Shown here: positions 1 to 49,400 of the stretch, piece after piece | Layout of the letters: each line of letters begins with the position of its first letter | Position numbering within the stretch: the stretch's first letter is position 1 | Source of the DNA: Bolinopsis microptera | Lineage: Eukaryota > Ctenophora > Tentaculata > Lobata > Bolinopsidae | DNA: 64,000 bases | Assembly (NCBI RefSeq): GCF_026151205.1 | Contig: NC_087078.1 | Location: 19,259,765-19,323,764 of the forward strand | Reading direction: 5' to 3' | Translations under genes and position numbers: made by a program | Notes under the pieces: generated by a model | Database searches by the model: none | What the model saw: the letters and a program-made list of their open reading frames with translations, nothing else | Told to the model about the DNA's origin: nothing

Positions 1-2100
1 TTAACACTTAAAATACGCAGGATTTGACGAGAGTGATATTGATTAACACTTAAAATACGCAGGATTTGACGAGAGTGATATTGATTAACACTTAAAATAC
101 GCAGGATTTGACGAGAGTGATATTGATTAACACCTAAAATACGCAGGATTTGACGAGAGTGATATTGATTAACACTTAAAATACGCAGGATTTGACGAGA
201 GTGATATTGATTAACACTTAAAATACGCAGGATTTGACGAGAGTGATATTGATTAACACTTAAAATACGCAGGATTTGACGAGAGTGATATTGATTAACA
301 CTTAAAATACGCAGGATTTGACGAGAGTGATATTGATTAACACTTAAAATACGCAGGATTTGACGAGAGTGATATTGATTAACACTTAAAATACGCAGGA
401 TTTGACGAGAGTGATATTGATTAACACTTAAAATACGCAGGATTTGACGAGAGTGATATTGATTAACACCTAAAATACGCAGGATTTGACGAGAGTGATA
501 TTGATTAACACTTAAAATACGCAGGATTTGACGAGAGTGATATTGATTAACACTTAAAATACGCAGGATTTGACGAGAGTGATATTGATTAACACTTAAA
601 ATACGCAGGATTTGACGAGAGTGATATTGATTAACACTTAAAATACGCAGGATTTGACGAGAGTGATATTGATTAACACTTAAAATACGCAGGATTTGAC
701 GAGAGTGATATTGATTAACACTTAAAATACGCAGGATTTGACGAGAGTGATATTGATTAACACTTAAAATACGCAGGATTTGACGAGAGTGATATTGATT
801 AACACTTAAAATACGCAGGATTTGACGAGAGTGATATTGATTAACACTTAAAATACGCAGGATTTGACGAGAGTGATATTGATTAACACTTAAAATACGC
901 AGGATTTGACGAGAGTGATATTGATTAACACTTAAAATACGCAGGATTTGACGAGAGTGATATTGATTAACACTTAAAATACGCAGGATTTGACGAGAGT
1001 GATATTGATTAACACTTAAAATACGCAGGATTTGACGAGATTGATATTGATTAACACTTAAAATACGCAGGATTTGACGAGAGTGATATTGATTAACACT
1101 TAAAATACGCAGGATTTGACGAGAGTGATATTGATTAACACTTAAAATACGCAGGATTTGACGAGAGTGATATTGATTAACACTTAAAATACGCAGGATT
1201 TGACGAGAGTGATATTGATTAACACTTAAAATACGCAGGATTTGACGAGAGTGATATTGATTAACACTTAAAATACGCAGGATTTGACGAGAGTGATATT
1301 GATTAACACCTAAAATACGCAGGATTTGACGAGAGTGATATTGATTAACACGTAAAATACGCAGGATTTGACGAGAGTGATATTGATTAACACTTAAAAT
1401 ACGCAGGATTTGACGAGAGTGATATTGATTAACACTTAAAATACGCAGGATTTGACGAGAGTGATATTGATTAACACTTAAAATACGCAGGATTTGACGA
1501 GAGTGATATTGATTAACACTTAAAATACGCAGGATTTGACGAGAGTGATATTGATTAACACCTAAAATACGCAGGATTTGACGAGAGTGATATTGATTAA
1601 CACGTAAAATACGCAGGATTTGACGAGAGTGATATTGATTAACACTTAAAATACGCAGGATTTGACGAGAGTGATATTGATTAACACTTAAAATACGCAG
1701 GATTTGACGAGAGTGATATTGATTAACACTTAAAATACGCAGGATTTGACGAGAGTGATATTGATTAACACTTAAAATACGCAGGATTTGACGAGAGTGA
1801 TATTGATTAACACCTAAAATACGCAGGATTTGACGAGAGTGATATTGATTAACACTTAAAATACGCAGGATTTGACGAGAGTGATATTGATTAACACTTA
1901 AAATACGCAGGATTTGACGAGAGTGATATTGATTAACACTTAAAATACGCAGGATTTGACGAGAGTGATATTGATTAACACTTAAAATACGCAGGATTTG
2001 ACGAGAGTGATATTGATTAACACTTAAAATACGCAGGATTTGACGAGAGTGATATTGATTAACACTTAAAATACGCAGGATTTGACGAGAGTGATATTGA
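1..2100 (+). repeat. 42-bp tandem array (50 copies) carrying a splice acceptor in each unit
   Basis: Fifty head-to-tail 42-bp units fill the window start and probably extend further left. Divergence is very low: occasional CACCTAAAAT or CACGTAAAAT variants and one GAGATTGAT. Each unit holds an intron end (AAAATACGCAG) followed by GATTTGACGAGAGTGATATT, the first bases of the glutaredoxin exon that the array runs into. In the coding frame every unit except the last meets TAA right after ...SDID, so only the last acceptor (exon start 2079) keeps the frame open. Confidence 0.97.
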
Positions 2101-46400: not shown

Positions 46401-49400
46401 TGGAGTACTTAGTAAAACTTACTCCCTGCTACTGGAGTACTTAGTAAAACTTACTTCCTACTACTGGAGTACTTAGTAAAACTTACTCCCTGCTACTGGA
46501 GTGGGGGGAATGCAACGTCAATTAATGTCAATTAATGTCAATTAATGTCAATTAATGTCAATTAATGTCAATGTCAGTTTTGCAAAATTTTGGAATACTG
46601 ACATTAATTGACATGATATTTTTCGACCAGAGATTATGTAGTTCTACCATATTTTTAGCACTTTAGAACGTTTATATCATCAATTTATTCACTACTATCA
46701 CATATGGAAATGTGAAATGTGAAAAAAATTCAGATCATTAAACAATAAAACTAAAATAATACGGTTTCCCGAAATTTAATTTTCTTAAATGGGCGTGGCC
46801 ATCCAAGGGCGTGGTTCTCAACATCATCAGAACTTAAAACCCACATTAAACGAAATGCCTTCATGACATTTATATTTGAATAACGAATCTTAAACAGCTA
46901 ACATTACTCCTTCATACTAAAAAAGCCGATTCTAGATATTTTACCTGTATAAGAAACCAATAAAATATGGGCGTGGCCGGTGGGGACCGAAGATGGAAGA
47001 GTTGGAAGCTGAAATTTTTTTTGGTGGTCTTTGAACCTAAGGATCAACAGATAAGAACATACTCATAATTATTCAAGGACATTTTGTTTTTTTTGAACCG
47101 GTCTAACTTACATAGACGTGAATATCTTGAATATTTATCGAATAATGATAATCTCAAATTTCAAGACATATTAATGTCAATTAATGTCAATTAATGTCAA
47201 TTAATGTCAATGTCAGTTTGGGGTTTTTATGGAATACTGACATTAATTGACGTTGCATTCCCCCCACTGGAGTACTTAGTAAAACTTACTCCCTGCTACT
47301 AGAGTACTTAGTAAAACTTACTCCCTGCTACTAGAGTACTTAGTAAAACTTACTCCCTGCTACTAGAGTACTTAGCAAAACTTACTCCCTGCTACTGGAG
47401 TACTTAGTAAAACTTACTCCCTGCTACTGGAGTACTTAGTAAAACTTACTCCCTGCTACTGGAGTACTTAGTAAAACTTACTCGCTGCTACTGGGTACTT
47501 AGTAAAATTTACTCCCTGCTACTGGAGTACTTAGTAAAACTTACTCCCTGCTACTGGAGTACTTAGTAAAACTTACTCCCTGCTACTGGAGTACTTAGTA
47601 AAACTTACTCCCTGCTACTAGAGTACTTAGTAAAACTTACTCCCTGCTACTAGAGTACTTAGCAAAACTTACTCCCTGCTACTGGAGTACTTAGTAAAAC
47701 TTACTCCCTGCTACTGGAGTACTTAGTAAAACTTACTCCCTGCTACTGGAGTACTTAGTAAAACTTACTCCCTGCTACTGGAGTACTTAGTAAAACTTAC
47801 TCCCTGCTACTGGAGTACTTAGTAAAACTTACTCCCTGCTACTGGAGTACTTAGTAAAACTTACTCCCTGCTACTGGAGTACTTAGTAAAACTTACTCCC
47901 TGCTACTAGAGTACTTAGTAAAACTTACTCCCTGCTACTGGAGTACTTAGTAAAACTTACTCCCTGCTACTGGAGTACTTAGTAAAACTTACTCGCTGCT
48001 ACTGGGTACTTAGTAAAATTTACTCCCTGCTACTGGAGTACTTAGTAAAACTTACTCCCTGCTACTGGAGTACTTAGTAAAACTTACTCCCTGCTACTGG
48101 AGTACTTAGTAAAACTTACTCCCTGCTACTGGAGTACTTAGTAAAACTTACTCCCTGCTACTGGAGTACTTAGTAAAATTTACTCCCTGCTACTGGAGTA
48201 CTTAGTAAAACTTACTCCTTGCTACTGGAGTACTTAGTAAAACTTACTCCCTGCTACTGGAGTACTTAGTAAAACCTTATTTAATTTAAATAAAACTGTT
48301 ATTATTACCTTGCCATCAGATTGACGTAGAAGCAGTGCCAGTGCTAGCTCCTGCTTTTCTAGAGTCAATAAACCTACAATCAGCGTTCCGATCATCACCA
48401 GACTTTGTTCTGAATCTGAAAAAGGTAACCATCATATACTAGCAAATCAGCGGTTTACAATATTTTTCATTCCTGCCTTGCTTTTAGACGCGTACACTGT
48501 ACACGCGTACACTGTACACGCGTACACTGTAAACTTAAAATATTTGTATTTCACTTCCAGGGTCTGATGACGTTTATTTTGTAACAGCTAATACTAACAT
48601 TAGGTGAAATGGTCATGAACCGAAAAAATAATCATGCATAAAAAATGTGTATTGAAATCACAGATATGTAAAATATGTAAAAAAGGGTTCCTTACCAAAG
48701 TTCTTGACAGCATCAAGCATTTGTTCGTCTGTCAACTCAGTTTTATCTCCCATCAGGAGTGCCAGGAAGAAGTCGGCCCAATGTCGGCAGGAAATGCACC
48801 AGTTTTCAAATATGGTTGTAATGGTAAATCTGAAGTTTTCAGTATCAGGTTACAGGTATGAGGTATTTGAGGTAAATACACTTTACAATAACAGTCGGGG
48901 GGGAGGGTGGAGGAGGGAGGGAGGGAGGAAGGGAGGGAGGGAAGGAGGGTAGAGGAAGGGAGGGAGGGAGGGAGGGAGGGAGGGAGGGAGGGAGGGAGGG
49001 AGGGAGGGAGGGAGGGAGGGAGGGAGGTAGGGAGGTAGGGAGGAAGGGAGGAAGGGAGGAAGGGAGGGAGGGAGGTAGGGAGGTAGGGAGGTAGGGAGGA
49101 AGGGAGGAAGGGAGGAAGGGAGGAAGGGAGGAAGGGAGGGAGGTGTAGGGAGGGAGGGTAGAGGAAGGGAGGAGGTAGGGAGGAAGGGAGGAAGGGAGGA
49201 AGGGAGGAAGGGAGGAAGGGAGGAAGGGAGGAAGGGAGGAAGGGAGGGAGGTGTAGGGATAACTGTCCTGGACACAGGATTGGAGGGAGGAAGGGAGGAA
49301 GGGGGAAGGGAGGGAGGGAGGGAGGGAGGGAGAGAGGGAGGGAGGGAGGGAGGAAGGGAGGAAGGGAGGTAGGGAGGAAGGGAGGAGGTAGGGAGGAAGG

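Follow-up and report, generated by a model that had tools for sequence, protein, structure and literature searches.

In a 64-kb stretch of the genome of the ctenophore Bolinopsis microptera (contig NC_087078.1, here C7:19259765-19323764, hereafter the window) and in its flanks, tandem arrays of minisatellite size are enriched at splice junctions about 2.3-fold over the expectation from intron geometry for this distal part of the chromosome. These arrays are probably minisatellites of the mirage type, in which a junction segment was duplicated and amplified, the outermost copy remained functional and the intron grew from its edge. The cause of the excess at junctions over geometry is not established. 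The 88 kb analysed comprised the window, 14.4 kb upstream and 10 kb downstream, in which six genes were rebuilt; the end of the 20.1-Mb contig is about 0.8 Mb away. Arrays were located by Tandem Repeats Finder (TRF), and the counted set consists of the 28 arrays with a unit of at least 10 bp inside the curated gene spans. Array limits were set by hand twice: for methionine synthase the donor array was lengthened to include its first copy, and a pair of adjoining arrays was treated as one.

A splice junction is spanned by eleven of the 28 arrays. With five more arrays that lie 2-8 bp from a junction, the number within 10 bp rises to 16. The spanning arrays are distributed over five donors and six acceptors in genes for methionine synthase (three), a glutaredoxin (three), a leucine-rich repeat (LRR)-type protein (two), an ENaC channel, a membrane protein and a CDK (one each). 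The arrays at or close to junctions are as follows, with positions referring to the window unless a locus is named.
L035, methionine synthase: 47 bp x18.6, spanning an acceptor.
Methionine synthase: 62 bp x6.4, spanning a donor, in the same intron as the 31-bp array.
Methionine synthase: 31 bp x13, spanning an acceptor, in the same intron as the 62-bp array.
L009, glutaredoxin exon 1: 22 bp x11, spanning the donor.
1..2100, plus strand, glutaredoxin: 42 bp x65, spanning acceptor 2079; 22 of the 42 bases are exonic and AG is kept in 65 of 65 copies.
2458..3037, plus strand, glutaredoxin: 36 bp x16, spanning donor 2470; 12 exonic bases per unit, GT kept in 15 of 16 copies.
17539..17730, minus strand, LRR-type gene: 64 bp x3, spanning acceptor 17546.
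35635..35808, minus strand, LRR-type gene: 87 bp x2, spanning donor 35734; 75 exonic bases per unit.
28172..28254, plus strand, ASC/ENaC exon: 38 bp x2.2, spanning acceptor 28236; the 7 bases beyond two whole copies form a 7-bp direct repeat at the ends.
31032..31225, plus strand, membrane-protein gene: 69 bp x2.8, spanning acceptor 31217.
L029, CDK: 41 bp x14, spanning a donor.
22454..22501, minus strand, LRR-type gene: 11 bp x4.4, in an intron, 7 bp from donor 22509.
22617..24321, minus strand: 43 bp x40, 2 bp from acceptor 22614; the join KYLE-VSGCHKH matches protein P0123.
31863..31929, plus strand: 11 bp x6.5, 5 bp after donor 31857.
33313..35341, plus strand: 33 bp x61, 13 bp before acceptor 35355.
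40187..43469, minus strand: 20 bp x164, 8 bp from acceptor 40178.
36977..37399 (with flanks 36925-37453), minus strand: TC/GA tract of 423 bp that starts inside the GTAAGAGAG donor 37403, with a copy of the exon end on both sides (by eye).

The remaining 12 arrays lie more than 10 bp from a junction and include high-copy ones (35 bp x20, 39 bp x28, 32 bp x29 and the 33 bp x61 array). An earlier reading of the window made from the letters alone (the sequence-only reading) had placed repeats at many junctions throughout; these 12 show that not all arrays are junctional. In six of its seven spanning cases the junction is part of a minisatellite (2079, 2470, 17546, 28236, 31217 and 35734); the seventh, at 37403, was left out of the tests because its unit is 2 bp. 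Among its four cases within about 10 bp of a junction, those at 22614, 31857 and 40178 were confirmed and that at 35355 is too distant. The array reported at the left edge of the window as 42 bp x50 is real and has 65 copies once the upstream sequence is joined, TRF placing its start 650 bp upstream of the window (L009:9351) and related irregular copies beginning at L009:9204.

The TRF match is 91-100% in 24 of the 28 arrays and 76, 80, 84 and 86% in the other four. Of the 28 units, 22 were queried, and none of them matched elsewhere in the 364 kb of sequence searched. In the methionine-synthase intron that carries an array at either end, the 62-bp unit and the 31-bp unit are unrelated to each other. 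L035 was chosen as the 5' part of the methionine synthase gene, outside the window on which the sequence-only reading was based; apart from low-complexity sequence, it holds a single array with a unit of at least 10 bp and more than four copies, and this array spans an acceptor. The 64 bp x3 and 87 bp x2 arrays have no extra bases at their ends, and the 7-bp direct repeat that ends the two-copy array at 28172 is what slippage between short repeats would leave.

The number of arrays at junctions was compared with a placement null, in which each array was cut to one unit and re-placed uniformly either in its own interval between neighbouring exons or over all non-coding positions. In the own interval, 4.75 spanning arrays are expected against the 11 observed (p=0.0014) and 6.2 near arrays against 16 (p=0.00002); over all non-coding positions the expectations are 3.56 (p=0.0002) and 4.6 (p=0.00001). 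A circular shift, which moves all 28 arrays together round the spans and keeps their clustering, gave p=0.001 for spanning and p=0.00025 for near arrays. With TRF limits left untouched, ten arrays span a junction (4.43 expected, p=0.004) and 15 are near one (5.76 expected, p=0.00001). Five of the 18 arrays inside the window span and nine are near a junction; placement in the own interval predicts 2.1 and 2.7 (p=0.034 and 0.00006), placement over all non-coding positions 2.3 and 2.9 (p=0.06 and 0.0008). Among the ten arrays starting outside the window, six span (2.65 expected, p=0.017) and seven are near (3.48 expected, p=0.014). In intervals that exceed 1 kb after collapsing, six of 12 arrays lie within 10 bp of a junction compared with 0.5 expected (per-array chances summed by hand). 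Within this region, arrays lie at junctions more often than by chance under both the uniform-placement and the circular-shift nulls.

The junctions themselves were taken from gene models whose splice joins are backed by homologous proteins in five of the six genes. Every curated exon chain translates without internal stops, with a reservation for glutaredoxin exon 1, and the eleven exon borders named in the sequence-only reading all carry AG or GT in these models. The models in the window are the following.
L009:8396 to window 3654, plus strand: glutaredoxin-like gene, from splicing and translation; window exons 2079-2206, 2375-2469, 3166-3305 and 3530-3654, 5' exons upstream in L009.
28236..30003, plus strand: ASC/ENaC channel exon (Pfam PF00858, E 5.5e-46), in a 13-kb intron of the minus-strand LRR-type gene.
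30594-30771, 31217-31405, 31520-31615, 31739-31857, 32129-32224 and 35355-35511, plus strand: six-exon membrane-protein gene (P0121), in the same 13-kb intron.
45313-45232, 40178-40058, 38487-38307, 37581-37403, 36754-36596, 36397-36273, 36158-36043, 35882-35734, 22614-22509, 18930-18768, 17546-17471, 17213-17072 and 16863-16792, minus strand: LRR-type gene, 13 exons modelled from P0122/P0123, a gene predictor and the reading frame.

According to the alignment with Mnemiopsis leidyi P0121 (77% identity over 100% of the length), the membrane-protein gene shows no indel at any of its five joins, which backs the borders at 31217, 31857 and 35355. The borders at 40178, 37403, 35734 and 22614 are backed by P0122/P0123, which match nine exons of the LRR-type gene at E 1e-9 or better and three (45313, 17546 and 16863) weakly (E 0.14-3); at 17546 the match covers 17 residues only (E 0.14), in the right order, and exon 17213-17072, which is without a protein match, is based on the gene predictor and the frame. 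The minus-strand exons had also been considered as three genes, which was rejected as P0123 joins them into one, and a 14-residue extension of one exon to 37623 was dropped for 37581. The glutaredoxin-like protein aligns with yeast Grx2 (3d4m, E 9.5e-10) over its first domain only; the join at 2079 is inside this domain, with a one-residue gap shortly before it, and the border at 2470 follows from frame and splice consensus. The donor of glutaredoxin exon 1 at L009:8445 was rejected because it does not keep the frame into exon 2 (start phase 1); moving the donor four bases further on, still within the 22-bp unit, would restore the frame (by hand, unproven), and the array spans either donor. 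The border at 28236 rests on the frame of the ASC/ENaC exon, for which no upstream exon was found. In the flanks, 18 exons of the methionine synthase gene were seen in L035 and L009: exons 1-8 align to human methionine synthase with E 1.1e-156 and the L009 exons 475-4416 with E 4.6e-150. This alignment is gap-free over the intron bearing arrays at both ends, and in the exon at the L035 acceptor array it begins at the second residue. The two exons of the CDK gene in L029 match CDK16 with no gap where the array-bearing intron is spliced out.

The copy in use can be judged from the proteins. If the neighbouring copy were used instead, a stop codon would occur within the added unit in eight of the 11 spanning arrays, a frameshift without such a stop in two, and only in one (87 bp x2) would the frame be kept; the frame of glutaredoxin exon 1 is uncertain in this comparison for the 22-bp array. 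P0123 carries one copy of the 87-bp unit and then continues with KYLE-VSGCHKH into the exon at 22614, so that the second copy at donor 35734 is read as intronic. In these comparisons the protein agrees with use of the outermost, exon-proximal copy. In the glutaredoxin-like protein, the second domain contains an array-free intron at the corresponding position (aligned by hand) and in identical phase; due to this counterpart, the intron with the 42-bp array is most simply regarded as older than the array.

Based on these data, the following course appears probable. A short segment straddling or abutting an existing splice junction would have been duplicated in tandem and in place, as the anatomy of the arrays indicates. 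Slippage or unequal exchange would then have amplified and homogenised the copies, as suggested by the 91-100% identity in 24 of the 28 arrays and the locus-specific units, with maxima of 65 copies among the spanning and 164 among the adjacent arrays. Judging from homologous proteins and reading frame, the outermost exon-proximal copy alone would be spliced, the rest would become intron and the protein would remain unchanged; the arrays presumably persist because the functional copy is preserved. The proposal of the sequence-only reading that introns lengthen from their edges by arrays growing from existing junctions, with the outermost exon-proximal copy in use, is supported by these data.

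Arrays also occur at coding edges other than splice sites. A 54-bp array spans the stop codon and 3' flank in two nearly identical ASC/ENaC paralogs (L001:928-1465, x10; L002:2940-3634, x13), which were found by homology and are located on C7, 1.1 Mb apart. The array most simply predates the duplication of the paralogs, which differ in its copy number in one haplotype, at a type of site other than a splice junction. In L031, assessed by hand without comparison to a homolog, a 39 bp x2.6 array extends over a putative stop codon and a 63 bp x2.1 array over an acceptor, and the start of a 35-bp array is about 6 bp from a donor. Array placement is not splice-specific; what the sites share is that they border coding sequence. 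The sequence-only reading had invoked repair or replication slippage at transcribed exon-intron borders; a cause in transcription or splicing is not supported, with stop codons spanned too and donors and acceptors affected alike (5 vs 6), and its mutational mechanism is possible. We tentatively consider, without favouring it, a ctenophore process that seeds tandem duplications at coding edges, both splice junctions and stop codons, and lengthens introns from their borders where minisatellite activity is high.

It is rather unlikely that geometry and purifying selection alone produced the pattern, with duplications arising anywhere, those in coding sequence being lost and the survivors touching junctions. 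Many survivors must touch a junction because introns are short (median 255 bp in the 40 curated introns, arrays included) and units measure 10-87 bp, and the own-interval null itself yields about 40% of the observed counts. The spanned stop codons, as any tolerated edge would be, the excess at the border of significance in the flanks alone and the lack of an excess in random stretches (see below) would fit this explanation as well. However, the observed 11 spanning and 16 near arrays exceed its prediction, and the excess is largest where least is predicted, in the intervals longer than 1 kb. A mutational process directed to junctions or coding edges by transcription, splicing, chromatin or the GC/AT transition would fit the excess above the geometric null, the similar numbers of donors and acceptors, the stop codons and the difference in GC content (47% in exons vs 36% in non-coding sequence). 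Such a process is possible, if doubtful, and no sign of it was seen in the sample of random stretches.

Units that hold donor or acceptor sites could also have created the introns, either by duplication of an AG-GT site as in the Rogers model or as introner-like mobile sequences. This seems very improbable, since the other intron end is no copy of the unit in any of the nine spanning arrays for which that end is known, the ends of the methionine-synthase intron carry unrelated units, the glutaredoxin intron seems older than its array, and the units are locus-specific within the sequence searched. It is equally hard to credit that the repeats are functional, either as a reserve of splice sites or in regulation. 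The splice dinucleotides are intact in 154 of the 155 copies of the spanning arrays; however, their conservation does not exceed that of other positions (1 change vs 4.4 expected, p=0.27, in seven high-copy arrays, with the 62-bp array giving one aligned copy only), so that inner sites are neither detectably kept nor purged, and use of the next copy would mostly introduce the stop codons described above.

Several results weigh against the interpretation of the arrays as mirages in excess at junctions. The behaviour of the dinucleotides and the share of the counts explained by geometry belong here, and the excess was tested mainly in the region chosen because the pattern was noticed there. Without the 42-bp array that runs into the window, five of nine outside-window arrays span a junction (2.44 expected, p=0.05) and six are near one (3.22, p=0.04), and with TRF limits untouched these numbers fall to four (2.12, p=0.12) and five (2.82, p=0.09). 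The interval of the first of these arrays is cut by the chosen span edge, which raises the expected value; when all of L035 is taken as the interval, the nine arrays yield p=0.016 and 0.011 for spanning and near with adjusted limits, and 0.046 and 0.031 with TRF limits. Furthermore, arrays with units of 10-100 bp in introns predicted ab initio (one entry per array) span a junction in nine of 43 cases in the studied region (5.2 expected, p=0.04; near 12, 6.6 expected, p=0.01), in four of 23 in five other distal stretches (3.3 expected; near 6, 4.4 expected) and in none of 34 in 19 random 10-kb stretches (2.3 expected; near 4, 3.3 expected). With a stricter exon score the spanning counts are 7/37 in the region (4.2, p=0.08), 3/18 in the other distal stretches (2.5) and 0/30 in the random ones (2.0).

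The ab initio model, for whose training GA/CT low-complexity sequence was masked, recovers 55 of the 68 curated exon borders, whose sites had helped to train it. An earlier intron-based run, with units above 100 bp included and an exon score of at least 0, gave spanning counts of 8 vs 5.9 expected in the region, 4 vs 2.8 in the other distal stretches and 5 vs 7.0 in the random ones. A chain-based run (threshold 3), which missed the methionine-synthase junctions and several glutaredoxin junctions, found 7 vs 2.5 expected within 10 bp in the window, 12 vs 5.5 in the distal loci including the window and 4 vs 3.9 in the random stretches. Scoring of splice sites at random positions showed no excess in three groups and was dropped for its wrong null, because random intervals in long open frames score high themselves. 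The genome-wide rule implied by the sequence-only reading is not supported by these ab initio models. It may be a regional pattern; alternatively, the random sample may contain too few arrays and too little annotation to reveal it.

The 13-kb intron of the LRR-type gene (window 22615-35733) hosts two genes on the opposite strand, the ASC channel and the ctenophore membrane protein; nested genes are described as a habit of ctenophores in the accessible part of a published report (PMC8527503). The window further contains long GGA/GA-rich purine tracts (11120-14350 and 48897-50941) with higher-order repeats of 180-243 bp and 8-16 bp. Fragments resembling reverse transcriptases and GIY-YIG proteins, presumably of retroelements, are located at 7711-8532, 43442-44338, 55361-58574 and 59791-61684, and the open frames at 43.4 kb and 57.2 kb have a long, nearly identical stretch in common.

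In subtelomeric minisatellite clusters, arrays of high copy number and with locus-specific units are densely packed less than 1 Mb from the chromosome end. The arrays described here resemble them in density, copy number, locus-specific units and the distal position of the window, and minisatellites account for 26% of the 88 kb compared with a mean of 6% in the 19 random stretches. A subtelomeric nature is not established, because minisatellites make up a share of anything between 0.01 and 0.79 in the five other distal 10-kb stretches. One distal stretch, L032 (C4:15600001-15610000), consists to 79% of minisatellites (31 bp x93 and 32 bp x141).

Intron growth is mostly attributed to mobile elements and to diffuse insertion. 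In the conserved genes studied here introns would grow from their edges, with stages from two to 164 copies and an identifiable functional copy. Should the whole genome show this excess at coding edges, it would point to a mutational bias linked to these borders. For gene predictors, such arrays contain dozens of intact decoy splice sites.

Intron gain of the Rogers type, as described in the accessible part of the report on potato RdRp (PMC4974935), likewise involves a tandem duplication that includes splice sites. In contrast to that model, existing introns grow here and no new intron position is seen; the same unit at both intron ends was found in none of the nine spanning arrays with a known other end, which was not found for the 47-bp array of L035 and the 38-bp ENaC array. 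Introners place similar sequences in many unrelated introns, whereas none of the 22 units queried recurred within the 364 kb searched.

The sequence-only reading knew of nothing similar, yet minisatellites or tandem duplications over exon-intron boundaries have already been described as mirages in amphioxus Adh3, globin, troponin C and PGBD5, as far as the available portions of these papers show (PMC3087553; PMC3902484). For ctenophores, no paper on junction-spanning arrays was recognised among the titles and opening abstract lines listed by the searches of an open-access library. Judged by their sequence, the arrays in B. microptera appear to be the same kind of structure in a ctenophore: the tandem repeats are of minisatellite size according to TRF, the unit of 11 of the 28 contains an exon-intron boundary authenticated by protein homology and frame, and both 5' and 3' boundaries are duplicated. 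To the extent covered by those portions, the amphioxus mirages likewise have the junction inside the unit at the 5' or 3' border, keep AG or GT in many copies and have units of 10-160 bp. Normal splicing was reported there on the basis of RT-PCR; here the copy in use is read from protein homology. Compared with the three and six copies in amphioxus globin BflGb6, the ctenophore arrays reach 65 copies when spanning and 164 when adjacent; they are denser than in the globin cases, occur several per gene, show a measured excess over intron geometry and extend to stop codons.

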